Origin: Deltaproteobacteria bacterium
GTDB taxonomy: Bacteria > Desulfobacterota > Desulfobacteria > Desulfobacterales > B30-G6
Direction of reading: 5' to 3'
DNA: 38,879 bases
Assembly (NCBI GenBank): GCA_022340465.1
Contig: JAJDNW010000097.1
Span: forward strand, 1-38,879
In this document: positions 5,769-28,056 of the stretch, piece after piece
Layout: the number at the start of each line of letters is the position of its first letter
Numbering within the stretch: position 1 is the first letter of the stretch
Notes under the pieces: generated by a model
The model's input: the letters and a program-made list of their open reading frames with translations, nothing else
Told to the model about the DNA's origin: nothing
The model's database searches: none
Made by a program: the position numbers and the translations under genes

Positions 5769-5771
5769 CTT

Positions 5772-5863: not shown

Positions 5864-5879
5864 TGGCACATTTCCTGCT
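5864..5879 (+). promoter_or_regulatory. Sigma54 (RpoN) -24/-12 promoter of the carboxylase genes
   Basis: TGGCACATTTCCTGCT matches the sigma54 consensus TGGCACG-N4-TTGCT at 10 of the 12 defined positions, with the invariant GG (5865-5866) and GC (5877-5878) exactly 12 bases apart. Transcription would start near 5890, about 50 bases before the ATG at 5939. The convergence of promoter, dyads and a divergent enhancer-binding-protein gene makes the assignment strong. Confidence 0.82.
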
Positions 5880-5938
5880 GCTACCTGTACGATACCGCTC
5901 GAACAACGACAAATGCCATTAATGACAGGAGATTGACC

Positions 5939-7489: not shown

Positions 7490-7512
7490 TACGCGGCCGA
7501 AGGAGAAATAAA

Positions 7513-9069: not shown

Positions 9070-9119
9070 TACCTTTAGAATTCGAAAAGTAAAATTTTGT
9101 TAAGGAAAGGAGCAACCCT

Positions 9120-9368: not shown

Positions 9369-9383
9369 CGTTCGTTTCTACTA

Positions 9384-9420
9384 TTTTTCGTGCTTTCGTG
9401 CTTTCTTGTTTTCATGATGA
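9384..9420 (+). repeat. TTTCGTGCTTTCGTG-type dispersed repeat (half element)
   Basis: TTTTTCGTGCTTTCGTGCTT and the T-rich bases after it resemble the right arm of the palindromic element at 27234-27296. It lies just after the biotin carrier gene and seems to be a partial copy of a dispersed intergenic repeat. Confidence 0.45.
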
Positions 9421-9441
9421 ACCGAGATAGCGTGCGCATTC

Positions 9442-9526
9442 CCTGCAGCTTGCTGCAGGATAAGCGAGCGCATCATAATTGATAGAATTCCTTACGGTGA
9501 CGATTCCCCTTAAGCTTGCTGCGGGG
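9442..9526. repeat. Pair of GCTTGCTGC palindromic units between carrier and biotin carboxylase genes
   Basis: CCTGCAGC (9442-9449) and GCTGCAGG (9452-9459) form a perfect 8-bp inverted repeat. About 50 bases later, CCCC (9506-9509) and GGGG (9523-9526) flank a related AAGCTTGCTGC core. The two units share GCTTGCTGC and look like copies of one intergenic palindrome family. They fill most of the 212-base gap between the carrier and carboxylase genes and may tune mRNA stability there. Confidence 0.5.
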
Positions 9527-9580
9527 AGTGTTCAATGATCTTTGTCTTCTCAAATCATCCGGGATAGGAGAACACCCGAT

Positions 9581-10951: not shown

Positions 10952-10963
10952 AGGAGACACACC

Positions 10964-11731: not shown

Positions 11732-11739
11732 GAGTCACC

Positions 11740-13509: not shown

Positions 13510-13525
13510 GGAAAAAGAAAATTTG

Positions 13526-13633
13526 GGGCCCTTTCACGGCATGGTCGGCGTCGAAGCCAGGGTTCTCAATCCGGCTTTCCCCGGCGACACCCTGCATATG
13601 GTCAAAGCATGTAACCTTAACAATCATAATTGA
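13526..13633 (+). pseudogene. MaoC-like dehydratase fragment
   Basis: The frame from 13526 to the stop at 13631-13633 reads GPFHGMVGVEARVLNPAFPGDTLHMV and then diverges. The HGMVGVE...LNPAFPGDTL pattern is typical of the middle of MaoC/R-hydratase hot-dog proteins. The remainder of the domain is missing on both sides and there is no start codon with a ribosome binding site. It occupies most of the 177-base gap between atuA and the next gene. I read it as the relic of a deleted hydratase gene; recognition rests on about 25 residues. Confidence 0.5.
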
Positions 13634-13686
13634 GGTCATTATCAACAAACCAGATAAACTCAATTTTAAATAACAAAAGGATGCCT

Positions 13687-14478
13687 ATGAAAACGATCTG
13701 CAAAGACCTGGCGGACGAGGGCCAGGCCCTGGACGACATCGTGGCCGATATCGGCGATGCCGACTGGAACAGGGAAACACCCTTCAACGGGTGGACCATC
13801 AAGGATGAAATCGCCCACATCGCCTACTTCGACATGTTCGCCCGGCTTTCCGCCACCGACAGGGAGGCCTTTGAAAAGGAGATGACCCGGCTGGCGGCCG
13901 ACATGAAAAATTTTTTCGAGGTCACCCTGGAGCCGGGGCGCAGCAAAAGCAATGCGGAACTGCTCCAATGGTGGCGCACCGAACGCAAAGCCATGATCGA
14001 AGCCTACCAGGCCCTCGACCCCAAGGAACGCCTCCCCTGGCAGCTTCCCATGAGCGCGCGTTCCTCGGCCACCGCCCGTATCATGGAGACATGGGCCCAC
14101 GGGCAGGACGTCGTGGACGCGCTGGGGATCACGAGGGAACCGACCGATCGTTTGAAGCACGTCGCCCACCTGGGTGTGGCCACCTTCGGGTGGAGTTTTC
14201 AATGCCGCGGCCTCGAGAAACCAACCCAGGAAGTCCTCGTGAAGTTGACCGCCCCCGGGGGCAACATCTGGACCTATGGGCCTGAAGGGGCCGAAGACCG
14301 CATCCAGGGCGACGCCCAGGATTTCTGCCTGGTGGTTACCCAGCGACGACACTATCTGGACACCGGCCTCAGCATAAAGGGACCGATAGCGGAAAAATGG
14401 ATGTCCGTGGCCCAGGTGTTTGCCGGACCGCCGGACGAGGGGCCGAAACCGGGCACCTTTCCGAAGCAAGCAGGCTAG
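13687..14478 (+). CDS. TIGR03084-like DinB/maleylpyruvate isomerase-fold metal-binding protein
   Basis: A 263-residue protein with the four-helix DinB/MDMPI fold expected from its N-terminus (GQALDDIVADI, then FNGWTIKDEIAHIAYFD). Putative metal-binding histidines are in IAHIAYFD (about residue 41) and TWAHGQDVVDALG (about residue 138). It resembles the TIGR03084 family of uncharacterised proteins. Such folds bind divalent metals and can act as thiol-dependent isomerases or transferases, but no reaction can be assigned. Of the ATGs at 13681 and 13687 I chose the second, since AAAGG at 13676-13680 abuts the first and is well spaced from the second. Confidence 0.78.
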   Translation: MKTICKDLADEGQALDDIVADIGDADWNRETPFNGWTIKDEIAHIAYFDMFARLSATDREAFEKEMTRLAADMKNFFEVTLEPGRSKSNAELLQWWRTERKAMIEAYQALDPKERLPWQLPMSARSSATARIMETWAHGQDVVDALGITREPTDRLKHVAHLGVATFGWSFQCRGLEKPTQEVLVKLTAPGGNIWTYGPEGAEDRIQGDAQDFCLVVTQRRHYLDTGLSIKGPIAEKWMSVAQVFAGPPDEGPKPGTFPKQAG

Positions 14479-14582
14479 CGGCCCAATGCGGACGGGAACA
14501 GCTTTCATGCCCGCTTCGCTCACGTTTGTCAACAACGTCGGCTGTGCAGAGGTCAGCAATCGGAGGGCGGAAGACAGCGAAA

Positions 14583-14670
14583 ATTCGACACGGATTACGC
14601 GAATTGCCCGGAATGAATAAACAGCCAACCCTGTATAAAATCGACGCAATCCGTAAAATCCGTGTCGGAA
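14583..14670. repeat. Inverted repeat pair upstream of the acyl-CoA dehydrogenase gene
   Basis: The left arm (14583-14607, core CGACACGGATTACG) and right arm (14646-14670, core AAAATCCGTGTCG) are imperfect inverted repeats of about 25 bases around a 38-base spacer. The right arm ends just before the AAAGGA ribosome binding sequence of the next gene. The element looks like a dispersed intergenic palindrome and could form a long leader hairpin. Confidence 0.5.
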
Positions 14671-14680
14671 AAAGGAAAAA

Positions 14681-15853
14681 ATGAAAACGAAAAAAGTCAA
14701 ATCACCCGACCAGCTCTACTTTACCGAAGACCACGAACTGGTTCGCAAGGCTGTCCGGGATTTTGTCCGCAGAGAGATTCGGCCCAACCTGGACGAATGG
14801 GAAGAAAAGGGGCAGGCGCCGCTCCACGACCTTTTCAAGAAGATGGGAGACTTAGGCTTCCTGGGCATCCGCTATGACCCCGCCTACGGCGGTCAGGGCC
14901 TGGACCACTGGTACGACCTGGTTTTTCTGGAGGAGCTCGGACACATCCAGGGATTCGGCCTGCCCGTCGCCATCTCCGTCCAGACCCACATGGCCACTCC
15001 GGCAATCCACGACTTCGGCAGCGAATATCTGAAGGAAACCTACCTGAAACCGGCCATCGCCGGCGATATGGTGGCTTCCATCGCCGTCACGGAACCCGGT
15101 GCCGGTTCCGACGTCGGGGCGCTGATCACCACCGCCCGGCGGGACGGCGGCGAGTACGTCATCAACGGCTCCAAGACCTTCATCACCAACGGCACCCAGG
15201 CGGATTTTCTGACCCTTTTGGCACGCACCAGCGATGACCCGGGATACCACTCCTTCAGCCTTTTCGTGGTACCCACCGATTTGCCCGGCTTCCATGTCAG
15301 CCGGAAATTGGACAAGCTGGGCATGCGCTCCAGCGACACGGCCGAACTGTTCTTCGACAATCTCAGGATCCCCAAAGAACACCTCATCGGCAAGGAGGGG
15401 GAAGGCTTCATCTACCAGATGCAGCAGTTTCAGCACGAGCGGTTTTCCGGAATCCCCATGGGGTATGTCGGCGCCCGGGACATCATCGACATGACCGTGG
15501 GCTACATCAAGGACCGGGTGGTTTTCGGCAAGCCCCTGATAAAACGGCAGGTGCTGCAGCACAGGCTTGCCGAGTGGCTCATGGAGATCGAATGCCTCAA
15601 GCGGCTGGCCTATCACATCGTGCGCATGAAAGAAGCCGGTCTGGACGCCGCTAAAGAGATCACCATGGGCAAGCTGAAAGTGGCGCACCTCGTTCAGGAA
15701 GTGATCGCCGGCTGCATGCAGATGCACGGCGGCATGGGCTTCATGAACGAAATGCTCATCAGCCGCTATTTTCGTGATTCCCGCGTTATTTCGGTGGGCG
15801 GCGGAGCCAACGAGGTCATGTGCCAGGTAATCGCCAAAATGGAAGGATATTGA
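14681..15853 (+). CDS. Acyl-CoA dehydrogenase (IVD/LCAD/AtuD-like)
   Basis: A 390-residue flavin acyl-CoA dehydrogenase making a 2-enoyl-CoA. Signatures are AVTEPGAGSDVG (135-146), INGSKTFITNG (161-171) and MHGGMGFMNE (348-357). The usual catalytic base position, the glutamate in the YEGTxEI-like segment, is glycine here: SVGGGANEVM (371-380). A glutamate at residue 253 (QFQHERFSG) occupies the place used by isovaleryl-CoA and long-chain dehydrogenases, which suggests a branched or bulky acyl substrate. This fits the carboxylase/AtuA genes upstream. The gene ends 5 bases before the 3' end of a convergent GntR gene. An AAAGGA site precedes the ATG. Confidence 0.93.
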   Translation: MKTKKVKSPDQLYFTEDHELVRKAVRDFVRREIRPNLDEWEEKGQAPLHDLFKKMGDLGFLGIRYDPAYGGQGLDHWYDLVFLEELGHIQGFGLPVAISVQTHMATPAIHDFGSEYLKETYLKPAIAGDMVASIAVTEPGAGSDVGALITTARRDGGEYVINGSKTFITNGTQADFLTLLARTSDDPGYHSFSLFVVPTDLPGFHVSRKLDKLGMRSSDTAELFFDNLRIPKEHLIGKEGEGFIYQMQQFQHERFSGIPMGYVGARDIIDMTVGYIKDRVVFGKPLIKRQVLQHRLAEWLMEIECLKRLAYHIVRMKEAGLDAAKEITMGKLKVAHLVQEVIAGCMQMHGGMGFMNEMLISRYFRDSRVISVGGGANEVMCQVIAKMEGY

Positions 15854-15857
15854 CCCG

Positions 15858-16556
15858 TTATTTGTAATAGTCGCTGAGGGAGGCATAAATGTCCTGAATA
15901 TGCTCCTTCATGTTCGCTGCCGCCTTGTCGAGATCCCCGTCCTTGACCCCCTCGTAGATATTGACATGAAATACCAGTGATTTTTTCAGGAGGTCCGGTA
16001 TGGCGGTGAAGGCTTCCCGGATGAACTGTTCCATCAGACCGCGGATGGTGAGAAACATGTGCTTCATGTAGCGGTTGTGGGAAGCGATAGCCAGGTGCTC
16101 GTGAAAGGCCATGTCCAGTTCGGAGTAGCGTTTCATCCGTTCCTCGGCCAGCGCGGATTGCATCCGCGCGACGAGCTTTCCTATCTGATCGATATCTCTT
16201 TTGGTGGCATGCTGCACGGCGAGCTCCACCACCCCGATTTCGATGAACCGCCTGGCTTCCAACAGTTCCAGGCTGGCCTCGGCATCCGACAAGAACGGCG
16301 GGGAAAGCTGATCCAGCCACAGGGACGGGTTTGCCGACTTGATAACCGTGCCGAGCCCGGGCCGCTGCTCGATGACGCCGATCAGGCTCAGGGTATGCAG
16401 CGCCTCGCGCAACGAAGGCCGGCTGACACCGAGCTGGGCGGAAAATTCGTTCTGATTGGGAAGCTTGTCGCCCTCCTTCAGCTCTCCCGCCGCGATCATG
16501 CGCTTGATTTCATCGAGAACGGCATCGGCCAGTTTTTTTCTTTTGATGGCAGCCAT
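15858..16556 (-). CDS. GntR/FadR-family (FCD) transcriptional regulator
   Basis: A 232-residue regulator with an N-terminal winged helix (LADAVLDEIKRMIAAGELKE, then SAQLGVSRPSLREAL, about residues 8-50) and a C-terminal all-helical FCD ligand domain (ELDMAFHEHLAIASHN, about 140-155, and FHVNIYEGVKDGDLDKA). The FCD domain normally binds a metal and an organic acid or acyl-CoA. It is the last gene of the minus-strand block, 141 bases after the FMN oxidoreductase gene, and convergent with the acyl-CoA dehydrogenase gene. It probably represses one or both catabolic blocks in response to an intermediate; the target is inferred. Confidence 0.92.
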   Translation of the reverse strand: MAAIKRKKLADAVLDEIKRMIAAGELKEGDKLPNQNEFSAQLGVSRPSLREALHTLSLIGVIEQRPGLGTVIKSANPSLWLDQLSPPFLSDAEASLELLEARRFIEIGVVELAVQHATKRDIDQIGKLVARMQSALAEERMKRYSELDMAFHEHLAIASHNRYMKHMFLTIRGLMEQFIREAFTAIPDLLKKSLVFHVNIYEGVKDGDLDKAAANMKEHIQDIYASLSDYYK

Positions 16557-16697: not shown

Positions 16698-17690
16698 TTA
16701 GTCCTTAACTGCAGCGTGCACGGCATTGAGCCGTTCGACCGCCTCTTCCATCATCTCCTTGAGCAGCTCTGCACAGGTAGGGATGGAATGAATCAGACCG
16801 ATGGATTGCCCCACCATCATGGGGGCCGCATTCACGTCACCCGTTTCCCAGGCCTTGAGGACGCGCTCCCCTGAAATCAGCGGGATGATCGCTTCCAGGC
16901 CACCGCCTTTGGCTTCCGTTTCCAGAACACACGCCACGGTTTCGTTGCGTAACGCCCTGCCCTGGAGATGGATCGACTTGCATATCAAGGCGGTGTCCTG
17001 TTCCTGACGATTGACCAGTTCCTGCTTGATGTTGTCGTGAACATCGCACTCCCTGGTGGCCATGAACCGGCTGGCCATCATGACCCCGTCCGCGCCCAGC
17101 ATCAGGGCCGCCGCCAGGGTGCGGCCGTTGGCGATGCCGCCCACGGTGACCACCGGAATGGAAACCGACTCCTTTATCCTGGGGGTCAGCACCATGGTGC
17201 TGACGTCGTCGTCCAGGGGGTGCCCTCCCTCCTCGATGCCCGCCGCATAGATCCCGTCGTAGCCCACCTTTTCAGCATGCACGGCATGGCGCACGGACCC
17301 CACCTTGTGAAACAGCTTCACCCCGGCCCCCTTGAGCATGTCGATGTATTCCATGCCGCAGGCCTTGTCGATGGGAGCGCCAGACACTTCGATGCCGGCA
17401 ACCTGTTCCTCGGCGCACACGCGCAGATACATCTTGTGGTGTTCACCGCTGATACGCACTGATGGTAGAATGGTGACGTTGACCATAAAGGGTTTGTCGG
17501 TCAGATTGCGGGTTTCATGGATGGCGTTTCGAAAGTCGTCCTCGGTTTCAAAGTTGGCGGCTGTCAGGTTGCCCATTCCCCCGGCATTCGAGATGGCCGC
17601 GCACAGGTTGGGCTTGCAGATCCACATCATGGCACCGCATATGATTGGATAGTCGATGCCGAACATATCGGTAATTTTAGTCTTAATCAT
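16698..17690 (-). CDS. FMN-dependent oxidoreductase (nitronate monooxygenase / FabK-like)
   Basis: A 330-residue TIM-barrel flavoprotein. The N-terminus, ITDMFGIDYPIICGAMMW, is typical of the family. The FMN phosphate-binding segments are GGIANGRTLAAAL and GADGVMMASRF, and EEGGHP carries the conserved GGH site. Members include nitronate monooxygenases, the enoyl-ACP reductase FabK and several 2-enoyl reductases. In this acyl-CoA context an enoyl reductase or an amine/nitro side-reaction enzyme are both possible. The start overlaps nothing: GGGGAG lies 6 bases before it, and the aminotransferase stop is 11 bases upstream, so the two genes are one transcription unit. Confidence 0.87.
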   Translation of the reverse strand: MIKTKITDMFGIDYPIICGAMMWICKPNLCAAISNAGGMGNLTAANFETEDDFRNAIHETRNLTDKPFMVNVTILPSVRISGEHHKMYLRVCAEEQVAGIEVSGAPIDKACGMEYIDMLKGAGVKLFHKVGSVRHAVHAEKVGYDGIYAAGIEEGGHPLDDDVSTMVLTPRIKESVSIPVVTVGGIANGRTLAAALMLGADGVMMASRFMATRECDVHDNIKQELVNRQEQDTALICKSIHLQGRALRNETVACVLETEAKGGGLEAIIPLISGERVLKAWETGDVNAAPMMVGQSIGLIHSIPTCAELLKEMMEEAVERLNAVHAAVKD

Positions 17691-17701
17691 TCGGCTCCCC
17701 T

Positions 17702-19042
17702 TTACATCCCTATTTTTTTCTCCATTTCAGTCAAAATCTCGTCCAGCAGCCCGACGATTTCGTCGATCTCGTCCCGGGTCACGATATACGCGGGCCCCAG
17801 CATCATCATGTCCCCGGCCTGTCCGCGTTCGCATCCGCCGGAGGTCTCGATCACCAGGCCTTTGCTCTGGGCCTGCATGTGCAGATCGACCCAGAACATC
17901 CGGGCCGGATCCAAGGGCTCTCTGGTTTCCTGGTTTCTCACGAACTCCACGCCGCGCATCAATCCTTCGCCGCGGACGTCGCCGACGATCGCATGCGACT
18001 TGAGCCCCTCGAGCTTTTCCCCCAAGTATTCACCCATTTCGGCGCAGCGTGCAACCAAATTTTGTTCGTCCAGGATATCCATGGTTTTGTTGGAAACGGC
18101 GGCCCCGAGCGGATTTCCGGCCCAGGTGTGCCCGGCGGAGAATATCCCCGATCCCTTGGCGATCGCATCGAAAATTCGGGAGGTGACGGCAACGGCCCCC
18201 AGGGGGAAATACCCGCCCGCAATGGCCTTTCCCAGGGCCATGAGGTCCGGCGGCGTCTCGAAGTGTTCGTAGGCGAAGAATTTACCGGTGCGGCCGAAGC
18301 CGGTCATGACCTCGTCCATGATCAGCAGGACATCGAATTTGTCGCAGATCTCCCGAATCTTCTTGAAATAGTCCCGACGCGGCGCCGCCGCACAGAGCGA
18401 CATGCCCGAGAAGGGCTCGGCAATAAAGGCGGAAACGGTGTCAGGACCCTGCATCATGATTTCGTTTTCCAGGGCCTGGGCGCACTCCAGGTTGCACGTC
18501 TCGGGCTGCTGCTTGAACCAACATCGGTAGCAATAGCCCGGGGCGATGTGATAGGTGCCGGCAAGATAGGGGACATAGTCGGCCCTGCGGAACGGAAAGC
18601 CTGACATTGCCAGGGCGCCCATGGTCATGCCGTGGTAGCTCAACCACCTGGAGATAACCTTGAACTTGGAGGGGTTGCCGTTTTCGATGTGGTATTTGCG
18701 CGCCAGTTTGATGGCAGTTTCCGTGGCCTCGGAGCCGCCGGACACCATAAACACCCTGTCCATGACGTTGCCGCTTTTTGCGCAAATACGGGAACAGCAT
18801 TCCTCCAAAACCGGGGTCGTGAAATCCATGCGGTAGACAAAGGCGGCCTTCTCCGCCTGCGCTTGCATGGTTGCGGCGATCTCCTTGACGCCATGGCCCA
18901 GGCTGCAGGTGATCGGGCCGCTGCTGGCATCGATGTAGCGGTTTCCATGCGTGTCGTAGAGGTAGATGCCCTCTCCGCGCTCGATGGCCGGGTACTCGTT
19001 GTTGAGAAACACGCTGATTGAATGGCTTTTTTGGGCGGTCAT
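17702..19042 (-). CDS. Class III (omega) aminotransferase
   Basis: A 446-residue PLP-dependent class III aminotransferase. PLP-phosphate contacts are in SGGSEATETAIKLARKYH; the cofactor aspartate is in LLIMDEVMTGFGRTG and the Schiff-base lysine in LGKAIAGGYFPLGAV. A cysteine-bearing insert (YCYRCWFK, followed by TCNLECA) lies about residues 170-190 and recalls a small metal or disulfide site seen in some relatives. These enzymes transfer the amino group of omega- or beta-amino acids or amines, usually to pyruvate or 2-oxoglutarate. It lies between the VOC gene and the FMN oxidoreductase gene and has a GGGAG site 8 bases before the ATG. The substrate is unknown. Confidence 0.93.
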   Translation of the reverse strand: MTAQKSHSISVFLNNEYPAIERGEGIYLYDTHGNRYIDASSGPITCSLGHGVKEIAATMQAQAEKAAFVYRMDFTTPVLEECCSRICAKSGNVMDRVFMVSGGSEATETAIKLARKYHIENGNPSKFKVISRWLSYHGMTMGALAMSGFPFRRADYVPYLAGTYHIAPGYCYRCWFKQQPETCNLECAQALENEIMMQGPDTVSAFIAEPFSGMSLCAAAPRRDYFKKIREICDKFDVLLIMDEVMTGFGRTGKFFAYEHFETPPDLMALGKAIAGGYFPLGAVAVTSRIFDAIAKGSGIFSAGHTWAGNPLGAAVSNKTMDILDEQNLVARCAEMGEYLGEKLEGLKSHAIVGDVRGEGLMRGVEFVRNQETREPLDPARMFWVDLHMQAQSKGLVIETSGGCERGQAGDMMMLGPAYIVTRDEIDEIVGLLDEILTEMEKKIGM

Positions 19043-19155
19043 ATTTTTTCTCCCAATTTAATAAATTTTCATGGCTACTGCTTATGATGACTACTTGACA
19101 ATACGAATCCCTGTGCCCTTATCATCTACTCCATTTAATGCTGAAAGAAAATTTT

Positions 19156-19554
19156 TTAGGGTTCTGACAACTCAATGGTAATTCCGTTGAGCGCTTCGGG
19201 CGTGGACAGGGCAATCTTCCTGCCCCGCAGCCCCACTCTCGGCTCCTGGTCCGCCATGGGCACGCCGCGCTCCTTGAGCTTCTCCACGTCCGCTTCTATG
19301 CTGTCGGACAGCAGGCAGAAGTGGTGAATCATGTCCCCCTTTTCCTGCAGCATCTGCGCAAGCGGCCCGTCAGGCCCGGCGTCCTGGATCATCTCCAGGC
19401 CGATGCCGTTCAGATCCACCACCGCACACCTGAGCCCCGCATCCGGGAATTCCTTCACTTCGGGCGGTTCGATGTCCACAATCTTTGCCAGTGCCGTTAC
19501 CGTCGATTCGATGTCTTTCACAAAAAGGCCCAGATGGCCGATACCTTTAATCAT
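19156..19554 (-). CDS. VOC-family protein, methylmalonyl-CoA epimerase-like
   Basis: A vicinal-oxygen-chelate protein of 132 residues (137 if the upstream ATG at 19569 is used). The candidate metal ligands match methylmalonyl-CoA epimerase: His in GIGHLGLF, Glu in IGLEMIQ, His in MIHHFCLL and Glu in TIELSEP. Epimerases convert the S- to the R-form of a 2-branched acyl-CoA so that it can enter a mutase, which would suit a pathway with a biotin carboxylase. I prefer the start at 19554 because a GGGGAGG stretch precedes it. It lies between the TRAP genes and the class III aminotransferase. A glyoxalase-type function cannot be excluded. Confidence 0.82.
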   Translation of the reverse strand: MIKGIGHLGLFVKDIESTVTALAKIVDIEPPEVKEFPDAGLRCAVVDLNGIGLEMIQDAGPDGPLAQMLQEKGDMIHHFCLLSDSIEADVEKLKERGVPMADQEPRVGLRGRKIALSTPEALNGITIELSEP

Positions 19555-19673
19555 CTCCCTCCCCTTCATTTAAAAAACACTCTTTCCATTTGGAATCAAT
19601 ACCGGCAAGCCCACATATGGTTATCACCATTACCCAAGCCGACACAAACCTTTATCGGGGCAGGTGACGAAAA

Positions 19674-20957
19674 TCACCTCATCAAATACACCAGCCACAT
19701 GGCGATCCCGGGAATCAGCGTGGTCAGAAACAGGGCCACCACCTGGGCCCCCAAAAAGGGCCAGGCCTCCCGGGCAATGGCCCCCATTTTTTCGTTGCAG
19801 ATGGGAGCGGCGATCCAAAGCTGCGGTCCCATGGGCGGTGTGATTTCACCGATGAGAGAACAGAAAATAGACAAAAGACCGTAGAAAACCGGGTCAATGC
19901 CCAGGTCTCTCACGCTGGGCATGAACAACGGCAGAACGATGATCACCATGGGAATACTCGAGAAAAAGAAACCCATGACCAGCAGCAGCACCTCCACGGC
20001 CAGCAGAAATGCCATGGGGCTGAGTTCCATGTTGACCACCCACTCTCCGATGATCTGGGGGAGCCCGATGTAGCCCAGGGTTTTGCCGAAAAGATCACCG
20101 CCGATATACATGAGGTAGATCATGCTGGACAGCTTGGCCGTGTCCACCAGTGAATCGATAAACCCCCGCCAATCGAGTGCCTTGTATATGAATATTCCCA
20201 GGATCAGGGCATAGTAAACCGAAACCGAGGCCGCCTGGGTCGGGCTGAAAATCCCGCTGTAGATGCCTCCCAACACCACGAGGGGCATCAGCAACACGGG
20301 GAAAACCTGGATCAGGGCTTTCCAGCGTTCATCCCAGGATGCCTTTCCCCGCAGGGCATACTTGCGGCGTTTGGATATGACCACCGCTACAATGCACATC
20401 AAAAAAGCACTCAGAAAGCCCGGACCGATGCCCGCCATGAACAGGTCGGCGATGGAAACCTGGTTGAAGGCCCCGAACAGGATGAAAAACAGGCTGGGCG
20501 GTATCAGCATGCCCAGTTCCGCCGCGCACACGGTCATGCCCGAAGAAAAGGGGCGGTCATACCCCGCATCGACCAGGATGGGGACGACTACCGTGCCGAT
20601 GATCGCCAGGCAGGCCGCAGCCGACCCGGATATGGAGCCTAAAAAAGCGGCAAAAACAATCGTGGCCACGGCCATGCCGCCCGGCCAGTGCCCCACCATG
20701 GCACTCATGAAATTGCGCAGCGGGACCATGCCGCCGCTCTTCAGAATCAAATTGCCGGCCAGAATGAAAAAGGGCATGGCCAGCAGGGTGTAGGAGTTTA
20801 TCGTCGAAAAAAAGAGCTGGGCCACGTTGGGGGTGGGGAATCCCATGGAATACAGTAAAATGATAATCGACCCCACACTGAAAGCGATTGCCAGCGGCGA
20901 CCCCAGCATAAAAAGGAGTATCATGGCCCCGAGGCCGATATATTCGAATAGTTCCAT
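19674..20957 (-). CDS. dctM: TRAP transporter large permease (DctM)
   Basis: A 427-residue polytopic membrane protein of the DctM/IT superfamily, with about 12 hydrophobic segments and the typical motifs LLAMPFFILAGNLI (near residue 57), AAFLGSISGSAAA and SLIGEITPPMGPQLW. It forms the Na+-driven channel of a tripartite ATP-independent periplasmic transporter. It follows the small permease gene by 23 bases, and the binding protein gene lies further upstream, giving P-Q-M order. The substrate is probably a carboxylate or amino acid used by the neighbouring aminotransferase/BKACE enzymes. Confidence 0.95.
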   Translation of the reverse strand: MELFEYIGLGAMILLFMLGSPLAIAFSVGSIIILLYSMGFPTPNVAQLFFSTINSYTLLAMPFFILAGNLILKSGGMVPLRNFMSAMVGHWPGGMAVATIVFAAFLGSISGSAAACLAIIGTVVVPILVDAGYDRPFSSGMTVCAAELGMLIPPSLFFILFGAFNQVSIADLFMAGIGPGFLSAFLMCIVAVVISKRRKYALRGKASWDERWKALIQVFPVLLMPLVVLGGIYSGIFSPTQAASVSVYYALILGIFIYKALDWRGFIDSLVDTAKLSSMIYLMYIGGDLFGKTLGYIGLPQIIGEWVVNMELSPMAFLLAVEVLLLVMGFFFSSIPMVIIVLPLFMPSVRDLGIDPVFYGLLSIFCSLIGEITPPMGPQLWIAAPICNEKMGAIAREAWPFLGAQVVALFLTTLIPGIAMWLVYLMR

Positions 20958-20980
20958 CTAGCGGTGACTCCTGTCTTGGG

Positions 20981-21472
20981 TTACCATTTTTTACGGGCAG
21001 CCCTTACCAGTTCGGCCAGGGCGATCAGCGTGAAGATGCCCATGCCAAGGGGGACGCACAACTCCACGATCCATTTTGGAACCGGAATGTAGCGGGGAAA
21101 AATAGAGCCCCGTACATGCAGCTGCTGCAGGAAAAGGATGCTCCCCCAGGTGATGAAAGCCCCGTATGCCAGGGTAATCAGTGCCAGCCCGACCTCCAGG
21201 GCCCAGCGGCCCCATCCGCTGAACCTGTCCCTGATGAAATCGATGGACACGTGCCCGCCGCCCGGCAGCAGAAAACCGGTGATGAGCAGCAGGGCCCACA
21301 CTGTCAACCAAACCGAAAAATCGAAAAAAAGGTCGAAAGACACCTTGAACACCACACGGGCGATAATTTCGGCCATGCTGATGGTTACCGCGACAAATAA
21401 AATAATGCCGCAGGACACCTCGGCGAACCTTCTGATCCGCGCATACAGGCCGTTTTCTCCTTTGTTTGTCAT
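20981..21472 (-). CDS. dctQ: TRAP transporter small permease (DctQ)
   Basis: A 163-residue protein with four predicted membrane helices (about residues 20-40, 52-70, 92-112 and 132-155), the size and layout of DctQ. The motif GHVSIDFIRDRFS between helices 2 and 3 is characteristic. It assembles with DctM. GGAGGTAA is 9 bases before the start, a strong site. A GC-rich hairpin separates it from dctP. Confidence 0.93.
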   Translation of the reverse strand: MTNKGENGLYARIRRFAEVSCGIILFVAVTISMAEIIARVVFKVSFDLFFDFSVWLTVWALLLITGFLLPGGGHVSIDFIRDRFSGWGRWALEVGLALITLAYGAFITWGSILFLQQLHVRGSIFPRYIPVPKWIVELCVPLGMGIFTLIALAELVRAARKKW

Positions 21473-21496
21473 GGGGCATTACCTCCGGAAATTATC

Positions 21497-21542
21497 AAAC
21501 CGGGCTGCCGCCGCCCCTCGGCGGCAGGCGGCGGCCCGGTTT
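21497..21542 (-). repeat. GC-rich intercistronic hairpin between dctP and dctQ
   Basis: AAACCGGGC (21497-21505) pairs perfectly with GCCCGGTTT (21534-21542). Inside it TGCCGCCG (21506-21513) pairs with CGGCGGCA (21519-21526), leaving one 7-base bulge. There is no U-run after it on the minus strand, so it is not a standard terminator. Such hairpins usually protect the upstream binding-protein mRNA and lower permease expression. Confidence 0.65.
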
Positions 21543-21551
21543 GCATCCATG

Positions 21552-22592
21552 CTACTTCGACGCCTCGATGGCTTTGATAAGTGCGGGATCCAGGCCTTCC
21601 AAAGCGCTGGATCCTGCCGCCTTCATGGTCTTTTCCCATGTTTCATTTTCGGCGGCACTCAACTCGATCAGTTCCAGATCCGGGTTGGCCGCCCACCCCT
21701 GGGCAATGGCGCCCTGGGCGTTTTCGAAATAAGGGGCTGTCTCAATACGGTCGAAAACATCCTTGATGGCCGTGCGCTCTTTTTCCGGCAGGCCATCCCA
21801 CCACTGGGAGCTGGCCACGATACACAAAGGCTGAATGGCCCAGGTGTGCTTGACGCAGTACTTGGTGTAACGCGGCAGATCATAAAAATAAAATGCGGCA
21901 AACATATCGGTCAAGAGGCCGTCTATCATGTTGGTCTGCAGGGCCGTCACCACTTCCGTGTAGGGTAGGGAAATGGGGGTGGTTCCCATGGCCTTCAACG
22001 CCTTTGAAAAACCCTCGCCGCCGGCGAAACGGATCTTCTGCCCCTTCAAATCGGCCATTGAGTTGACCGGCCCCTTGTTCGTATAAAGATACCAGTCACC
22101 GGCACTGGCCATCCACTTTAAAATAGTGACCCCTTTTTCCTTGGCCATGTTAGCGGCCACTTTTTTCCAGACAGGCGTGTTCATGGTGCGCATGAAGTGC
22201 CCCCAACTGTTAAAAACCCCCGGCGATTCCACCGCCTTCCAGGCTGGTTCGAGCTGCTCCATGTAGTGGGGGCCGCTGAAGGTCAGTTCGGCGGCACCGG
22301 AAGCCACACCGGTGAGGCACTCGTTGGGATCGCTGAACAGGGTGTTGACATATTTAAGCGCATACTTGCCCTTCAACGCTTGGTAGGTGCGTATCCGGTA
22401 GTCCAAGGCACCGAAGTACATGTTCACCGACATGGCTTCCACACTGCCTTCCTGAGCACCTTCAGTGGCCCCGACGAGAACGAATTTAATATTTTGCTTT
22501 TTGGCCAGGGCATTTCCCGGAACGAAAACGACCATACCAACCATCAGACAGGCAACAAGAATCGCAATCGTAACGCCAGAAATTTTTTTCAT
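21552..22592 (-). CDS. dctP: TRAP transporter substrate-binding protein (DctP family)
   Basis: A 346-residue periplasmic binding protein. A signal peptide is visible (MKKISGVTIAILVACLMVG, cleavage probably after GNALA near residue 29). The DctP fold motifs are DLKGQKIRFAGGEGFSKAL and LPYTEVVTALQTNMIDGLL; in relatives an Arg in the first region (KIR) binds the substrate carboxylate. The start at 22592 is chosen because AGGAGG sits 8 bases before it; the in-frame ATG two codons earlier would be too close. It captures an organic or amino acid for the TRAP permease. Confidence 0.94.
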   Translation of the reverse strand: MKKISGVTIAILVACLMVGMVVFVPGNALAKKQNIKFVLVGATEGAQEGSVEAMSVNMYFGALDYRIRTYQALKGKYALKYVNTLFSDPNECLTGVASGAAELTFSGPHYMEQLEPAWKAVESPGVFNSWGHFMRTMNTPVWKKVAANMAKEKGVTILKWMASAGDWYLYTNKGPVNSMADLKGQKIRFAGGEGFSKALKAMGTTPISLPYTEVVTALQTNMIDGLLTDMFAAFYFYDLPRYTKYCVKHTWAIQPLCIVASSQWWDGLPEKERTAIKDVFDRIETAPYFENAQGAIAQGWAANPDLELIELSAAENETWEKTMKAAGSSALEGLDPALIKAIEASK

Positions 22593-22681
22593 GACCATTT
22601 CCTCCTTTTGGTAATTATGTTCACTTATGGTTCCCACACTTCCGATTCGACCCGATAACCACAAAGCTACAACGTATTAGC

Positions 22682-22792
22682 CTGGCAATTAAATAGCCTA
22701 CCCTGTCATGCTGGACTTGATCCGGTATCCATTACCTATTACTGGATTCCTGCCTTCGCAGGAATGACGGAATTGAGCTATTTAATCGCCGG
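22682..22792. repeat. 111-bp palindromic MITE-like element
   Basis: Terminal inverted repeats of 16 bases with two mismatches (22682-22697, TGGCAATTAAATAGC, and 22777-22792, GCTATTTAATCGCC) enclose internal palindromes, including a perfect 7-bp hairpin TTCCTGC-CTTC-GCAGGAA at 22747-22764. The internal part resembles the dispersed 'CTTGATCCGG...GGATTCCTGCC' repeat of many environmental bacteria. It lies between the BKACE gene and dctP, where it may carry or disrupt promoter signals. Confidence 0.6.
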
Positions 22793-22861
22793 ATCAGTAT
22801 CATAACGTTCACATCTCTCTTGACGAAGTTAACCCTCCAACTTCTCCTCGACGTTGCAAAA

Positions 22862-22878
22862 GCCTGAGGGCTTCAGGC
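22862..22878 (-). terminator. Weak terminator-like hairpin over the BKACE stop codon
   Basis: On the minus strand GCCTGA-AGCCC-TCAGGC is followed by TTTTGC. The stem includes the BKACE stop codon. With only four U residues it may be a partial terminator or an attenuator before the TRAP genes. Confidence 0.35.
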
Positions 22879-23742
22879 GACCTTCGACAATAGACCGAGC
22901 ATCGCCCTGGCCTCGTCCGGTGTGGCAACGGGTCGCTCGGCCACCCTGGCCAGGTCTCTGACCCAGACGGCCTGCTCCCAGCTGCCTTTGGCCAGCTCGC
23001 CGCCCGGCATTTTCACGTTGTCTTCCAGACCGATGCGAATGTGACCACCGGTGATGGCGCTGAGCATGGCCGCCTTCTGCTGGTGGGGTCCCACGCCGCA
23101 CACGCTGTAGGTGGCGTTTGCCGGCAGCTGTCCCACCAGACTCATGTGAAGCGTCGGATCGAACTGCATACCGCCGGCCACCCCGTAGACAAACTGGAAG
23201 TGCATGGGCTGCTCGAAGACCCCCTCTTTGCGGTTCAGCAGGATGCAGTTGTACAGCCCGCCCGGATCGAAGATCTCGCACTCCGGCTTGATGTCGTGCT
23301 CCCGCATCCGGCGGCCGAAGTCTTCCATCATGGCAAAGGTGTTGTCATAAATGAACTCGATCATGACTTCACCTGATTTGTGGTCGGCCACGGCAAAATT
23401 CATGGAGTTGGTGTTGTAGCTGGCCATCTCCGGTTCGACCGCCAGAGCGGGAGCAACGCGTTCCTCCGGCTTGGTCAGCATGGCGCCGGTGCTGATGTTG
23501 ATAATCATTTCCGGACAGCGCTCCTTGACCGCGGCGACGATGTCACGATGGGCCTGCACATCCATGGTGGCCATTCCCGTGGAAGGATCCTTGGCGTGAA
23601 TGTGAACGATGCTGACCCCCTCCTGCAAACACCGGTAGGACTCCTCGGCAAACTCCTCGGGTGTGTAGGGTGTGTTGGGATTGTTGTGCTTGGTGGTGGC
23701 GCCCCCTGCCAGGGCGGCCGTGATGATCAGTTTTTGTTTCAT
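22873..23742 (-). CDS. Beta-keto acid cleavage enzyme (BKACE, DUF849)
   Basis: A 289-residue TIM-barrel enzyme of the BKACE family (founder: Kce, 3-keto-5-aminohexanoate cleavage enzyme). The reaction is beta-keto acid + acetyl-CoA to acetoacetate + a shortened acyl-CoA. The Zn-binding pair is HIH (residues 47 and 49 in VHIHAKDPSTG; relatives often have HLHVRD) and the third ligand is Glu in HIRIGLEDN. The N-terminus, LIITAALAGGATTK, is typical. The gene lies 98 bases after a GSAM-like aminotransferase gene, a pairing that points to degradation of a beta-amino acid. The specificity pocket cannot be read with confidence. Confidence 0.92.
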   Translation of the reverse strand: MKQKLIITAALAGGATTKHNNPNTPYTPEEFAEESYRCLQEGVSIVHIHAKDPSTGMATMDVQAHRDIVAAVKERCPEMIINISTGAMLTKPEERVAPALAVEPEMASYNTNSMNFAVADHKSGEVMIEFIYDNTFAMMEDFGRRMREHDIKPECEIFDPGGLYNCILLNRKEGVFEQPMHFQFVYGVAGGMQFDPTLHMSLVGQLPANATYSVCGVGPHQQKAAMLSAITGGHIRIGLEDNVKMPGGELAKGSWEQAVWVRDLARVAERPVATPDEARAMLGLLSKVA

Positions 23743-23839
23743 TTTGCCCTCCTATGTGTCTCATTCAGGTAAAAACGTATTATCAGTCCCGGTATTCGGC
23801 TTGCGGCAGGGATACTCGCTGCTGCATTCTGCCTACTCT

Positions 23840-25213
23840 CTATTGTAAAACGGCCTCAGCTATTGGCTTGATCTGCTCCAGAGCCTTCCTGTACCGCTCG
23901 CTGATGAGGTCCACGATAGATACATCCATGGGTGTTGAAATTATGAAACCCACCATGCCCTTGGCAATGGCATAGACGCCCTGATTCAACAGGGCCAGGT
24001 GAAAATCCTGGGCCAGCTCGAGGGTAGGAATGACCGCTGTGACCGCTTCCCTGGCATTGCGAAAGGGCGTATCGAAAAAAAGGGAAAATGCAGCCGATCC
24101 GACGCCGCAAACCTGGCCGGTAATCCCCACTTCATCCATGGCCTTTTTGAGGTTCCCGCTCAGGCGCTCACCCAGCCCGTTGATTCGATCGATTTCTTCC
24201 CGCCCCAGGAGGTCCAGCGTGGTCATGCCCGCCGCCATGGTCAGGGCATTACCGCTGAACGTCCCGGAGTGCGTAACGGCATTCGGTTGCGTGGGGTCGA
24301 ACATCTGCATAATGTCCGCCCGTCCCCCAAAGGCCCCCACCGGGAGGCCGCCGCCGATAATCTTACCCAGCGCGGTGAGGTCCGGTCGGACATTCTCCAC
24401 CAACTGCCTGCCGCCGGTACTAAACCTGAAAGTGATAACTTCGTCGAAGATCAGCAGGGCGGCGTGGGCATCCGCCAGTTCGCGTAGTCCGGCCAGATAC
24501 CCCTTATCGGGCACGATGCCTCCTCCCTGGGTGAGAACCGGCTCCACCACGATGGCCGCCACCTTCCCCTTTTCGGCCTCCATGATCCGCCGCATGGCAT
24601 TCAGGTCGTTGTAGGGGGCGATGCGCACATCATTAAGGATAGCCGGCGGAACACCCGGCTCCACACTGGCCTTGGGCAGATCATCGGCCGTCAAATCCGG
24701 AAGCAGGTTGACTTCTACATAGTCATGACTGCCGTGGTATCCCCCGTCTATTTTAACGATGATGTTCTTTTTGGTGAAGGCTCTTGCCGCCCGGATGGCG
24801 AACATGGTCGCCTCGGTCCCGGAATTGCAGAACCGTAAGGATTCCATGGATGGAATGCGGCCGCATATCTTCTCCGCGTGCAGGCTTTGCAGTTCCGTGG
24901 GCGCGGCGTGAGCAGATCCCCTGGCGGCCTGCTCACAGATGGCGGCGACTACCTGCGGGTGGGCATGCCCGTGCACCAGCGACGTCATGTTGTTGACACA
25001 GTCGATGTATTCGTTGCCGTCAAGGTCGTAAAGAAAGCATCCCTTGCCTTGGGCGGCATAAAACGGGTAGGGCGGATAGTACGCCACCGACCGCGTGTCC
25101 CCGCCGGGCAGATACTTGATTGCTTTCTTGCGAAATTCAAAAGAAGCTTTGGTACGCGCCTGATACTCAACCAGGATTTCCTGTTTTGCTTTCTGCGCTT
25201 TCTCGCTGCTCAT
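23840..25213 (-). CDS. GSAM-like class III aminotransferase (possible beta-transaminase)
   Basis: A 457-residue class III PLP enzyme related to glutamate-1-semialdehyde aminomutase. Motifs are NSGTEATMFAIRAARAFT (PLP phosphate), LLIFDEVITFRFSTGG (cofactor aspartate; the T-x-R after DEV resembles beta-transaminases such as the beta-phenylalanine enzymes) and LGKIIGGGLPVGAFGG (Schiff-base Lys). It is unlikely to be HemL itself, since it stands in a catabolic block next to BKACE. A role in converting a beta-amino acid to the beta-keto acid used by BKACE is inferred. The start at 25213 is set by AAAGGAG 6 bases upstream; the longer frame to 25234 would contain that site. Confidence 0.9.
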   Translation of the reverse strand: MSSEKAQKAKQEILVEYQARTKASFEFRKKAIKYLPGGDTRSVAYYPPYPFYAAQGKGCFLYDLDGNEYIDCVNNMTSLVHGHAHPQVVAAICEQAARGSAHAAPTELQSLHAEKICGRIPSMESLRFCNSGTEATMFAIRAARAFTKKNIIVKIDGGYHGSHDYVEVNLLPDLTADDLPKASVEPGVPPAILNDVRIAPYNDLNAMRRIMEAEKGKVAAIVVEPVLTQGGGIVPDKGYLAGLRELADAHAALLIFDEVITFRFSTGGRQLVENVRPDLTALGKIIGGGLPVGAFGGRADIMQMFDPTQPNAVTHSGTFSGNALTMAAGMTTLDLLGREEIDRINGLGERLSGNLKKAMDEVGITGQVCGVGSAAFSLFFDTPFRNAREAVTAVIPTLELAQDFHLALLNQGVYAIAKGMVGFIISTPMDVSIVDLISERYRKALEQIKPIAEAVLQ

Positions 25214-25254
25214 AATTTGCTCCTTTCCATTCATTCATAGCATGACAAATAATG

Positions 25255-25443
25255 TCAGTTGTAACCGATCACTACTGCCACCAGCGGAAATACGATGCAG
25301 ATGCCCATGGTGACGAGATGAAGCGGCAGGGACCAACGAATCCAATCTTTGTAACTGATCCGTGCCAGCAGACCCGGAACGGCCAGGGTGGGTACAACCG
25401 ATCTTAAGGGGCTTTTGATCGAATCCATGGAATGGGATGTCAT
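25255..25443 (-). pseudogene. C-terminal remnant of an integral membrane transporter
   Basis: A 62-codon frame whose last 32 residues (KDWIRWSLPLHLVTMG, then an FPLVAVVIGY hydrophobic stretch) look like the final membrane helix of an ion-transporter-superfamily permease. There is no room for the rest of such a protein, and no ribosome binding site is apparent. It lies between the SDR and aminotransferase genes. I infer that an older transporter gene was deleted, its role perhaps taken over by the TRAP system. The exact family is uncertain. Confidence 0.45.
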
Positions 25444-25611
25444 GGTGATCCTTTTTACTGCATGTGTCTCAGAAAACGTTGCCTGTATTCTATGCCGCTG
25501 CAGTCATTTTTTATGCACAATACTGAAAGCGAACGGCCAAAAGCTTACCTCTATGCCTGGCTCATTTGAATTTTGGCTGTTCGATAAAGAACCATCGCCC
25601 GATGGAGGGCA

Positions 25612-26355
25612 TTAGATCATGAAAGCCCCTCCATTGACATCCAGGGTAACGCCGGTAACGAAAGGTGTGTCGATCAGGTAGGAAAAGGCCCGCACCACAT
25701 CGTCGGCCCTGCCCAACTTTTTTACAGCCGTTTTCCGTTTCAAGGCCGCCTTGTCCCCGCTCGACCATTCCCTGAAGATGCCGGCGTCCTCGATGAATGC
25801 CGGGGCGATGGCGTTGACGGTGATGCCGTGGGGCCCCAATTCCCGGGCGGCATAGCGCGTCAACCCCAGCATGCCGGCCTTGGAGGCGGCATAATGGGGT
25901 CCCACGACGCCGCCTCCCCGGGCCGCAAGGGAACTGACATTGACAATTCTGCCGTATCGTTCCCGCTTCATAAGGGGAACGACCTCTCTGAACCAGTAGA
26001 AAGCGCTGCTGAGATTGATCCTGATGGTATCGTCCCAGGAAGCGGTCGTGATTTCTTCGAAGTTCTGGCGGGGCATGATGCCGGCGTTGTTCACCAGCAC
26101 GCCGACGCCTCCCAACTCTTTTTTTACGGTGTCGGCATGTTGGGAAACCACTTCAGGATCGCCGGCGTCCCCCTTCAACACGATGATCCGGTTTTCGCCG
26201 GCAAGCCCCTGCAGTCGCTCCCTGGCCTCATCCGCCGCTGCATCATTGTGACAGTAGGTAAGACATAGGGAATAGCTTCTCTTAACCAAGAAACGGGCAA
26301 TTGCCAGACCTATTCCCCTTGTTCCGCCGGTGACAACGCCGACCCGACTAGACAT
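25612..26355 (-). CDS. SDR-family oxidoreductase (FabG-like)
   Basis: A 247-residue short-chain dehydrogenase. The dinucleotide motif is TGGTRGIG (9-16), followed by NNAG (88-91) and the catalytic set Ser140/141, Tyr154 and Lys158 (YAASK). The C-terminus, GVTLDVNGGAFMI, matches 3-oxoacyl reductases. It would interconvert a 3-hydroxy and a 3-keto acyl compound, for example making a beta-keto acid for BKACE. It is 90 bases downstream of the tetR gene and reads toward the aminotransferase gene. Confidence 0.92.
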   Translation of the reverse strand: MSSRVGVVTGGTRGIGLAIARFLVKRSYSLCLTYCHNDAAADEARERLQGLAGENRIIVLKGDAGDPEVVSQHADTVKKELGGVGVLVNNAGIMPRQNFEEITTASWDDTIRINLSSAFYWFREVVPLMKRERYGRIVNVSSLAARGGGVVGPHYAASKAGMLGLTRYAARELGPHGITVNAIAPAFIEDAGIFREWSSGDKAALKRKTAVKKLGRADDVVRAFSYLIDTPFVTGVTLDVNGGAFMI

Positions 26356-26444: not shown

Positions 26445-27077
26445 TCATGATTCCGTTGGAGCGGTATAGCGCTCGATGATGTCCATGAGCACCTCGCGAC
26501 AGCCGCTAAAATCCACCAAATCCGGCGTTGCCACCCACTGCAGGATCAACCCGTCCAAAGCCCCCTGAATAATCGGCACCACCTTAGCCACCGAAAATTG
26601 ACCGAACTCCCCGTTTTGCCGGCCGCGTTCCAGAATGTCGGACAAATAGCCAAAGCAGCGTTCATTGATCTCCCTTGACCACGGATGGCTTTGATTGGCG
26701 ACAGGGGTGAGGTCGAATCCCATGGCGAACAGCGCAATGAATTTATTGTAATTTATCTTTACGAACTCAAAATGGGCCTTGGCATAGGATCGCAGCCTCC
26801 CTTGCGCGGTTTCGTGCCGCTCCACGCGCTGCCGGCGATAATCGAAAAGTTCTTCGATGAGAGCCGACCAGATGGCGCTCAGCAATTCCTCGCGTGTATT
26901 GAAATGGTAATAGATGACCCCCTTGCTGATACCCGCCTCTTTGGCAATGTCCTGAATGGTAGTGTCCCGGTATCCCCTCTTCTCGATCTCCTGGATGGCG
27001 ATTTCCAATATCTGCTTGCGGCGGGCTTCTTCGATAAAGGTTGGTTTGCGTTGCTTGCGGTTGGTGACTGTGGCCAT
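26445..27077 (-). CDS. TetR/AcrR-family transcriptional regulator
   Basis: A 210-residue repressor with an N-terminal TetR helix-turn-helix (residues about 20-62: ILEIAIQEIEKRGYRDTTIQ, then KEAGISKGVIYYHF) and a helical ligand-binding C-terminus. It heads the minus-strand catabolic block. A 56-base imperfect palindrome overlaps its own promoter and ribosome binding site, so it almost surely represses itself, and probably the SDR and following genes by read-through. The ligand is unknown; TetR relatives in lipid catabolism often sense acyl-CoAs. Confidence 0.94.
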   Translation of the reverse strand: MATVTNRKQRKPTFIEEARRKQILEIAIQEIEKRGYRDTTIQDIAKEAGISKGVIYYHFNTREELLSAIWSALIEELFDYRRQRVERHETAQGRLRSYAKAHFEFVKINYNKFIALFAMGFDLTPVANQSHPWSREINERCFGYLSDILERGRQNGEFGQFSVAKVVPIIQGALDGLILQWVATPDLVDFSGCREVLMDIIERYTAPTES

Positions 27078-27315: not shown

Positions 27316-28056
27316 TTATGACAGCTTGGCCGCGTTCTCGGCAATCATCTTTTTAAAACGCGCGTTCATCCGCCCCATAAATTCTTCGAAGGATATCAGC
27401 GGCGCCGCAACGGCATCCTGCAGTTCGGCGGATACGGCCCCTTTGGACACCGCCTCCACGCCGGCCCTGTAAAAGGCGTCGCGAACCGCATTGACCTCGT
27501 CCGGCTTTTCCGGCTGCAGCATCTCCATGGCGCCACCCATGGGGCGGACGAGCGCGCCCATGTACTCGCCCGTGGCAAAGTTGGCGGCGATGGCCTGCAT
27601 GTGCCGGATCATGGGATCGAAGTTGTCCCTTTCCCCGAAACCGCAGGTGGAAAGGAGCAGGAGTTTGCGGATCTTCTTTTCCTTACCCCGGCTGGGGTGA
27701 CGCGCGTGCCCGTCACGATTCTCGATAAAGGGCATTCCGCCGGCGATGAGCCTGTCCAGCATGGTCTTCATCTGGGCGGTGAAACCGTCAAAGTAGACCG
27801 GGCTGCCTAACACGATAATGTCGGCCGCCTTTATTTTTTTCCGGATCGTCGCCATGTCGTCGTCGTGAACGCATTTCCCCGGGTGCACGAACCAGCAATT
27901 GAAGCAGCCGATGCAGTAGTTTATCTTCTGCCGGGCGATATACACCGTCTCCGTCCGAGCGCCGGCGGATGCGGCACCCTTTAAAAAAATCTGCAGCAGG
28001 GAGTCGGTGACCCCCTTTTTCATCCTGGGACTGCCGTTGAAGGCCAACACGTTCAT
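27316..28056 (-). CDS. Flavodoxin-like NADPH-dependent FMN reductase with Cys cluster
   Basis: A 246-residue flavodoxin-fold protein. The FMN loop is FNGSPRMKKGVTDSL (6-20), followed by CIGCFNCWF and KC (Cys48, 51, 54 and 62), a pattern that in iron-sulfur flavoproteins holds a 4Fe-4S cluster. The segment LGSPVYFDGFTAQMKTMLDR is characteristic of the multimeric flavodoxin/WrbA group. It may carry electrons or reduce quinones or disulfides in an anaerobe. A strong GGGAGGGG site precedes the ATG. It is a single gene with no clear link to the neighbouring block. Confidence 0.88.
   Translation of the reverse strand: MNVLAFNGSPRMKKGVTDSLLQIFLKGAASAGARTETVYIARQKINYCIGCFNCWFVHPGKCVHDDDMATIRKKIKAADIIVLGSPVYFDGFTAQMKTMLDRLIAGGMPFIENRDGHARHPSRGKEKKIRKLLLLSTCGFGERDNFDPMIRHMQAIAANFATGEYMGALVRPMGGAMEMLQPEKPDEVNAVRDAFYRAGVEAVSKGAVSAELQDAVAAPLISFEEFMGRMNARFKKMIAENAAKLS

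Follow-up and report, generated by a model that had tools for sequence, protein, structure and literature searches.

A candidate beta-amino acid catabolic module linking a GSAM-like aminotransferase to a beta-keto acid cleavage enzyme in Desulfobacterota

The window analysed here is a 38,879-nucleotide contig (JAJDNW010000097.1, assembly GCA_022340465.1) from a Deltaproteobacteria bacterium of the order Desulfobacterales. Its minus strand carries a gene unit in which a GSAM-like class III aminotransferase that we designate AT1 (23840–25234; PF00202) is followed, after 97 nucleotides, by a beta-keto acid cleavage enzyme (BKACE, DUF849; 22873–23742; PF05853 at 292.5 bits, cut-off 24.8) and then by the TRAP transporter DctPQM. 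This unit probably serves the catabolism of a beta-amino acid. Uptake would be through DctPQM, AT1 would transaminate the compound at the beta position with a 2-oxo acid as acceptor and thereby release a beta-keto acid, and BKACE would trap this unstable product with acetyl-CoA and, in a Claisen-type cleavage, yield acetoacetate and an acyl-CoA shortened by two carbons. A sequence-only reading of the window had already proposed uptake, beta-transamination, and cleavage in this order; this is the best-supported interpretation, and it agrees with the conserved neighbourhood. We prefer it because it uses the conserved core of AT1, BKACE, and the TRAP genes with the fewest assumptions. The sequence data show the gene families, their conserved linkage, the retained catalytic residues, and the distance of AT1 from HemL; the order and direction of the reactions and the use of a free rather than a CoA-bound substrate are inferred.

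In the direction of transcription, from 28056 to 15858, the unit comprises genes for an FMN reductase-like protein, a TetR-family regulator, an SDR dehydrogenase/reductase, AT1, BKACE, DctP, DctQ, DctM, a VOC-fold protein, a second class III aminotransferase (AT2), an NMO/FabK-like flavoprotein, and a GntR/FCD regulator, separated by gaps of 11–377 nucleotides. Open reading frames (ORFs) and Pfam matches place every gene named in the sequence-only reading on the minus strand at the coordinates it had given. Its gene calls were right, but it overlooked the VOC gene and, at the edges, the GntR, TetR, and FMN reductase genes that recur with the unit.

Conservation and identity of AT1 and BKACE

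The BKACE was searched for in 395 genomes of the phylum, in 389 of the order, and in three of the class to which genome G115 belongs, and AT1 in 58 relatives. This BKACE clade occurs in six genomes at 72–81% identity to the window copy: the window's own genome (G000), four others of the same order (G001, G002, G010, and G560), and G115, which belongs to another class of the phylum. An AT1-type gene, present in one to three copies per genome, adjoins the BKACE gene in all six genomes, five of them besides the window's; the sequence-only reading had proposed just such a neighbourhood check. A contig end interrupts the BKACE gene of G002, which was for this reason picked up through the AT1 search. 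In G115, a single 108-kb contig bears relatives of TetR (50% identity), AT2 (64%), SDR (62%), DctP (53%), DctQ (50%), DctM (70%), AT1 (51%), and BKACE (72%) in an order that differs from that of the window; this cluster contains no VOC, NMO, or FMN reductase gene and none of the plus-strand genes described below. The adjacency in six of six genomes, together with the rearranged G115 cluster of eight genes at 50–72% identity, indicates that linkage of AT1 to BKACE is more than chance.

The remaining genomes extend this picture, although many of their module contigs are short and absences from them mean little. Three contigs of G001, whose ends overlap by 53 and 55 nucleotides, suggest the order FMN reductase-TetR-SDR-AT1a-AT1b-BKACE-small ORF-AT1c-DctPQM. 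A divergent S49 peptidase gene neighbours the FMN reductase gene in both G001 and the window, which we therefore regard as one locus, with fewer AT1 copies in the window. G002 contributes three pieces: GntR-SDR-AT1b-BKACE; BKACE-AT1c-TetR-AMP ligase-ECH-amidohydrolase-DctP-DctQ-DctM; and DctM-ORF-VOC-AT2-ECH-reductase-NMO. G010 has SDR-AT1b-BKACE-AT1c and, on a separate contig, VOC-AT2-ECH, while G560 has AT1-BKACE-DctP-DctQ. DctP relatives lie on contigs bearing AT1-type or BKACE genes in G001, G002, G560, and G115. TetR relatives accompany the module in three other genomes (G001, G002, and G115), an FMN reductase relative in one (G001, same position), and a GntR relative (68%) in one (G002, directly upstream of SDR-AT1-BKACE). 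SDR precedes an AT1-type gene in G001, G002, and G010 and belongs to the cluster in G115. AT2 exceeds 60% identity in four of the six genomes including the window's (62–64% in G115, G010, and G002), with nothing above 45% in G001 or G560; VOC recurs beside it in G002 (70%) and G010 (64%), and an NMO relative (84% over 206 residues) lies downstream of it in G002. The next BKACE relative, in G613 (58%), has no AT1-type gene on its 8.1-kb contig.

AT1 has the class III fold with PLP lysine K291 and carries the beta-transaminase-like DEVITFR motif (LIFDEVITFRFS) that the sequence-only reading had correctly picked out. Its nearest structure by sequence is 6k8h at 333 bits, compared with 269 for the best GSAM. 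Foldseek also ranks 6k8h first for the AlphaFold model (38% identity in the alignment), which has a mean pLDDT of 70, is weak at residues 42–52, 82–91, and 269–274, and was used for the fold alone. The entry 6k8h is StoTA of Sphaerobacter thermophilus, which is described, in the text available, as converting aromatic, branched, and aliphatic beta-amino acids and as having an arginine, R36, that might bind the substrate carboxylate (PMC10589169). R48 of AT1 aligns with this residue and with R41 of VpAT, the corresponding carboxylate arginine. Two HemL-type rows of the alignment also have Arg in this column, after a three-residue insertion, so Arg alone does not discriminate; AT1 lacks the insertion typical of GSAM and HemL, and StoTA aligns likewise. 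AT1 keeps one of the three residues of the aromatic motif reported for VpAT (V43, E75, and Y76 in the accessible part of PMC9850050; V50, N82, and M83 in AT1), and StoTA itself has N70. A HemL function for AT1 was rejected on two grounds, the score against the HemL equivalog TIGR00713 (353.9 bits, cut-off 527.3) and the tree.

In that tree (44 hand-chosen rows, midpoint root, HemL-type rows named by motif), the module AT1 copies fall in a 28-row clade with support 99/99, and two HemL-type rows from related genomes fall outside it. The clade also holds Heimdallarchaeota proteins, one protein from Lokiarchaeota, two from Desulfobacterales, a G040 relative, and proteins from loci L017, L020, and L022 (SAR324, a delta-, and a gammaproteobacterium). 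Window AT1 belongs to a 17-row half, whereas the G115 enzyme lies in the other half with the aminotransferases of L017, L020, and L022. In these three loci, the AT1 relative is flanked by two lyase-family genes that form one BLAST cluster. The L017 pair scores 764 and 740 bits on a model for D-beta-phenylalanine-forming aminomutase (cut-off 800) and 454–487 bits on those for tyrosine 2,3-aminomutase and histidine ammonia-lyase. We take these aminomutase-flanked relatives as independent context evidence that the clade would act on beta-amino acids. The BKACE-linked aminotransferase of G115 is 55–56% identical to those of L017 and L020 and has the same five pocket letters as all three (R, A, Y, N, Y); those of window AT1 are R, V, Y, N, M.

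Other features of AT1 relatives may be recorded here. Near the sandwiched genes (L017:8394-13101, L020:8220-13072, and L022) lie an Lrp-type regulator and a CoA ligase (L017 and L020) and a TRAP transporter (L020 and L022), and the three loci look like a separate beta-amino acid pathway. Heimdallarchaeota and an Asgard metagenome-assembled genome (L002-L015, L018, L021, and L042) encode AT1 relatives of 48–55% identity; in nine of the loci examined, the neighbouring gene resembles, by eye, that of a PLP synthase, and no BKACE gene was found in the available flanks.

The window BKACE was compared with Kce, whose reference positions we take to be His46, His48, and Glu230 for the metal and Glu143, Arg226, and Asp231 for catalysis, with Glu14 presumably contacting the amine of the substrate. 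It keeps the metal ligands (H47, H49, and E240) and the catalytic residues (E156, R236, and D241), as do all five complete module copies, and has Ala15 at the position of Glu14. Its predicted structure (mean pLDDT 88) is nearest to 2y7d and fits Kce best, with TM scores of 0.82–0.88, and its score on the Kce model NF052387 is 252.6 bits against a cut-off of 382. In a tree of 39 hand-chosen rows, the module BKACEs form one clade (support 100/99). Characterised BKACEs (Kce and the 3-oxoadipate, 3,5-dioxohexanoate, and deoxyribonate types) share its Pfam family, metal site, and catalytic residues; in contrast to these, the window enzyme falls below the cut-offs of the four NCBIfam models matched, belongs to its own clade, and is aminotransferase-linked. 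BKACEs have been sorted into groups for hydrophobic substrates, benzoylacetate, beta-ketoadipate, and negatively or positively charged substrates, as far as the text available shows (PMC4922564). Because these groups span many substrate types, family membership alone cannot specify the side chain.

Alternative reactions and known systems

The same genes could operate in another order. Cloacamonas and Bacteroidetes ferment lysine by a variant route in which a HemL-like aminotransferase, Kat, is encoded at the kal locus and acts after Kce, the BKACE of that pathway; as described in the accessible portion of the report, Kat acts on CoA esters only and prefers 2-oxoglutarate (PMC3149608), whereas for AT1 we infer the acceptor. 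Kat resembles AT1, by description, as a HemL-like enzyme tied to a BKACE pathway, and this published precedent corrects the impression in the sequence-only reading that the combination was unfamiliar. By analogy, BKACE would first cleave an amino-bearing beta-keto acid, and AT1 or AT2 would then transaminate the resulting beta-aminoacyl-CoA, in which case more than one aminotransferase would have a function. We regard this order as unlikely. Lysine 5,6-aminomutase (PF09043) is matched in five of the 395 phylum genomes and in none of the six that carry the module. Four lysine-aminomutase loci of the phylum were fetched; three (L187, L188, and L189) contain a class III aminotransferase whose nearest counterpart is AT2 (28–30%), but AT1 is the best window match for no ORF in the four. 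L190, of the same phylum, served as a control in which kdd, kamA, kamE, kal, and kce were recognised by eye and kamD by PF09043. Its Kce is 34–36% identical to the window BKACE and has Glu where the latter has Ala15. Moreover, StoTA, the nearest solved relative of AT1, is reported to act on free beta-amino acids (PMC10589169, in part). Lysine fermentation itself was judged unlikely from the lack of PF09043 in the six hosts, the Ala in place of Glu14, and the comparison of aminomutase loci. Alternatively, the beta-keto acid that BKACE cleaves could be formed from a 3-hydroxy acid by the SDR, as in deoxyribonate catabolism, with the aminotransferases acting on other groups. Genetic support for an SDR-BKACE pair in deoxyribonate use has, like Kat at the kal locus, been published already (PMC6365646, the portion available), and an SDR gene accompanies the module in four genomes besides the window's. 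However, it is the AT1-type gene, not the SDR, that adjoins BKACE throughout, and one to three AT1-type copies per genome would be left unexplained; we find this scheme rather improbable.

BKACE might also catalyse a reaction other than cleavage, that of BsfD, in which acetyl transfer to a beta-keto acid and decarboxylation give a 1,3-diketone. The part of a preprint available to us states that all BKACEs have a Tyr that is replaced by Phe in BsfD and that this Phe may matter for diketone formation (PMC12871164). At the corresponding position, Kce Tyr145, the window BKACE has Phe158. Phe is present in all six module BKACEs, whereas Tyr occupies the position in 31 of 31 homologs with no AT1-type gene in the available flanks, mostly 1.5 kb a side and longer for five, plus L160 and L161. 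This count left out tblastn pieces shorter than 150 residues and five second copies (L120, L150, L151, L152, and L154, of L153, L122, L113, L119, and L115, respectively). The idea that the change alters the chemistry was striking at six of six against none of 31; it was dropped because Phe is also found, contrary to the preprint's statement, in the L190 Kce (L190:8269-9081), encoded in a kam-gene cluster, and, by sequence, in the uncharacterised PDB entries 3c6c and 3no5. We therefore treat Phe neither as a defining feature nor as a sign of other chemistry. Phe arose once within the module clade, so that the six copies count as one observation, and a diketone product fits an importer-bearing unit poorly; diketone formation thus seems very improbable. 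The window genome encodes a second BKACE (L173:5288-6187, on G000:C79) that is 37% identical to the first and has Tyr at this position; it lies near another TRAP transporter and, as judged by eye, an AMP-dependent ligase.

Several observations weigh against import, beta-transamination, and cleavage as the function of the unit. Of 80 AT1 relatives from outside the phylum, not one has a BKACE gene in the available flanks, many of which are short (all 80 loci were scanned for BKACE, and 25 entered the neighbourhood table), so that elsewhere enzymes of the AT1 type do without BKACE. The subclade that unites G115 with the aminomutase-linked aminotransferases has support of 94/96, which falls short of the tree tool's star, and Met-83 of AT1 replaces the Tyr with which VpAT contacts the ring. 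None of the NCBIfam models listed was reached by AT1 or AT2 (the best 25 of 69 each) or by BKACE (four of four), and no acetoacetate-activating gene was recognised within the module. The activities proposed here are predictions.

Known systems share parts of the proposed pathway. StoTA, VpAT, and MesAT resemble AT1 in their GSAM-like fold and substrate-carboxylate Arg; StoTA differs in having Thr-38 and Tyr-71 where AT1 has Val-50 and Met-83, and the accessible text on the three enzymes describes no link to BKACE. Paraburkholderia transaminates S-beta-phenylalanine to a beta-keto acid that decarboxylates to acetophenone and whose further fate is called uncertain in the text available (PMC6150868); here, BKACE would trap the keto acid instead. 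Among the matches listed by a literature search without most subscription journals, and besides the Kat paper, we found no transaminase for free beta-amino acids that feeds a BKACE and has its own TRAP transporter.

Other genes of the window

The TRAP transporter is complete, with Pfam matches for DctP (21552–22664; PF03480), DctQ (20981–21472; PF04290), and DctM (19674–20957; PF06808, with TIGR00786 above cut-off). The best PDB match to DctP reaches 76.8 bits, so no substrate was inferred from it. By eye, translation of DctP probably starts at 22592–22598 and that of AT1 likely at the ATG at 25213, each a few codons inside the listed ORF. The VOC-fold protein (19156–19569; PF13669) resembles methylmalonyl-CoA epimerase, although its TIGR03081 score of 75.2 bits is below the cut-off of 114.95. 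It is followed by AT2 (17702–19042; PF00202) and the NMO/FabK-like FMN oxidoreductase (16698–17690; PF03060). Upstream of AT1 lie the SDR (25612–26355; PF00106) and the TetR-family regulator (26445–27077; PF00440). The edges of the unit are formed by the NADPH-dependent FMN reductase-like protein (27316–28056; PF03358) and the GntR/FCD regulator (15858–16556; PF07729 and PF00392). All of these genes are on the minus strand, as is a 62-codon ORF between SDR and AT1 (25256–25443) that has no Pfam or NCBIfam match and by eye resembles the C-terminus of a lost membrane permease. A search across the window found no tRNA genes or RNA families.

On the plus strand, 5738–15853 encodes a complete biotin-dependent acyl-CoA carboxylase set, AtuA, an ECH-family protein, and an acyl-CoA dehydrogenase. 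The carboxylase set comprises two carboxyltransferase subunits, a biotin carboxylase, and, by eye, a BCCP-like frame in the gap at 9069–9542. These genes apparently belong to a separate, leucine/terpenoid-like pathway. The sequence-only reading had suggested that they oxidise and carboxylate the acyl-CoA released by BKACE. A search of 34 kb surrounding the G115 cluster found no relatives of the carboxylase or dehydrogenase genes at E 1e-10; on the other module contigs that were searched, which are short, the sole relatives were ECH-family genes at 27–31% identity. As only G115 offers enough sequence for a fair test, this role is unsupported rather than excluded.

Candidate substrates and significance

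One leading candidate for the substrate is a beta-aryl amino acid, from which the pathway would produce an aroyl-CoA. It is favoured by the aminomutase context, by the benzoylacetate group among BKACEs (PMC4922564, as available), and by BamA in the hosts. It is tempting to speculate, though we hold this as a tentative proposal that may well fail, that anaerobes degrade imported beta-phenylalanine, beta-tyrosine, or similar compounds through aroylacetates. A dedicated BKACE clade would use acetyl-CoA to convert these directly to benzoyl-CoA-type thioesters and acetoacetate, feeding anaerobic benzoyl-CoA ring reduction without an acyl-CoA ligase or loss of acetophenone. BamA scores above cut-off in four of the six hosts compared with 65 of 297 genomes of the phylum, a set in which two of the hosts are counted; the two hosts without it are 78–79% complete. 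The excess (Fisher p 0.024 once the two shared genomes are removed) is uncorrected for kinship, and three of the four hosts belong to one genus, which tells against this argument. Beta-glutamate and beta-lysine-type solutes are other candidates; beta-glutamate and N-epsilon-acetyl-beta-lysine are described as methanogen osmolytes in the portion of PMC1224877 available. From a beta-lysine-type substrate, BKACE would yield 4-aminobutyryl-CoA, and AT2 could conceivably serve as the omega-transaminase.

Beta-amino acids are natural products and osmolytes whose degradation has rarely been studied, and what becomes of the beta-keto acid formed by transamination of beta-phenylalanine is stated to be uncertain in the accessible part of the report (PMC6150868). 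A BKACE encoded beside the transaminase would be a direct answer, since the enzyme would capture the acid before it could decarboxylate spontaneously. If the proposed pathway is correct, it would explain how anaerobic bacteria break down beta-amino acids without oxygen, would supply pairs of linked enzymes with which to make or resolve these compounds, and would add another physiological role to the DUF849 family.

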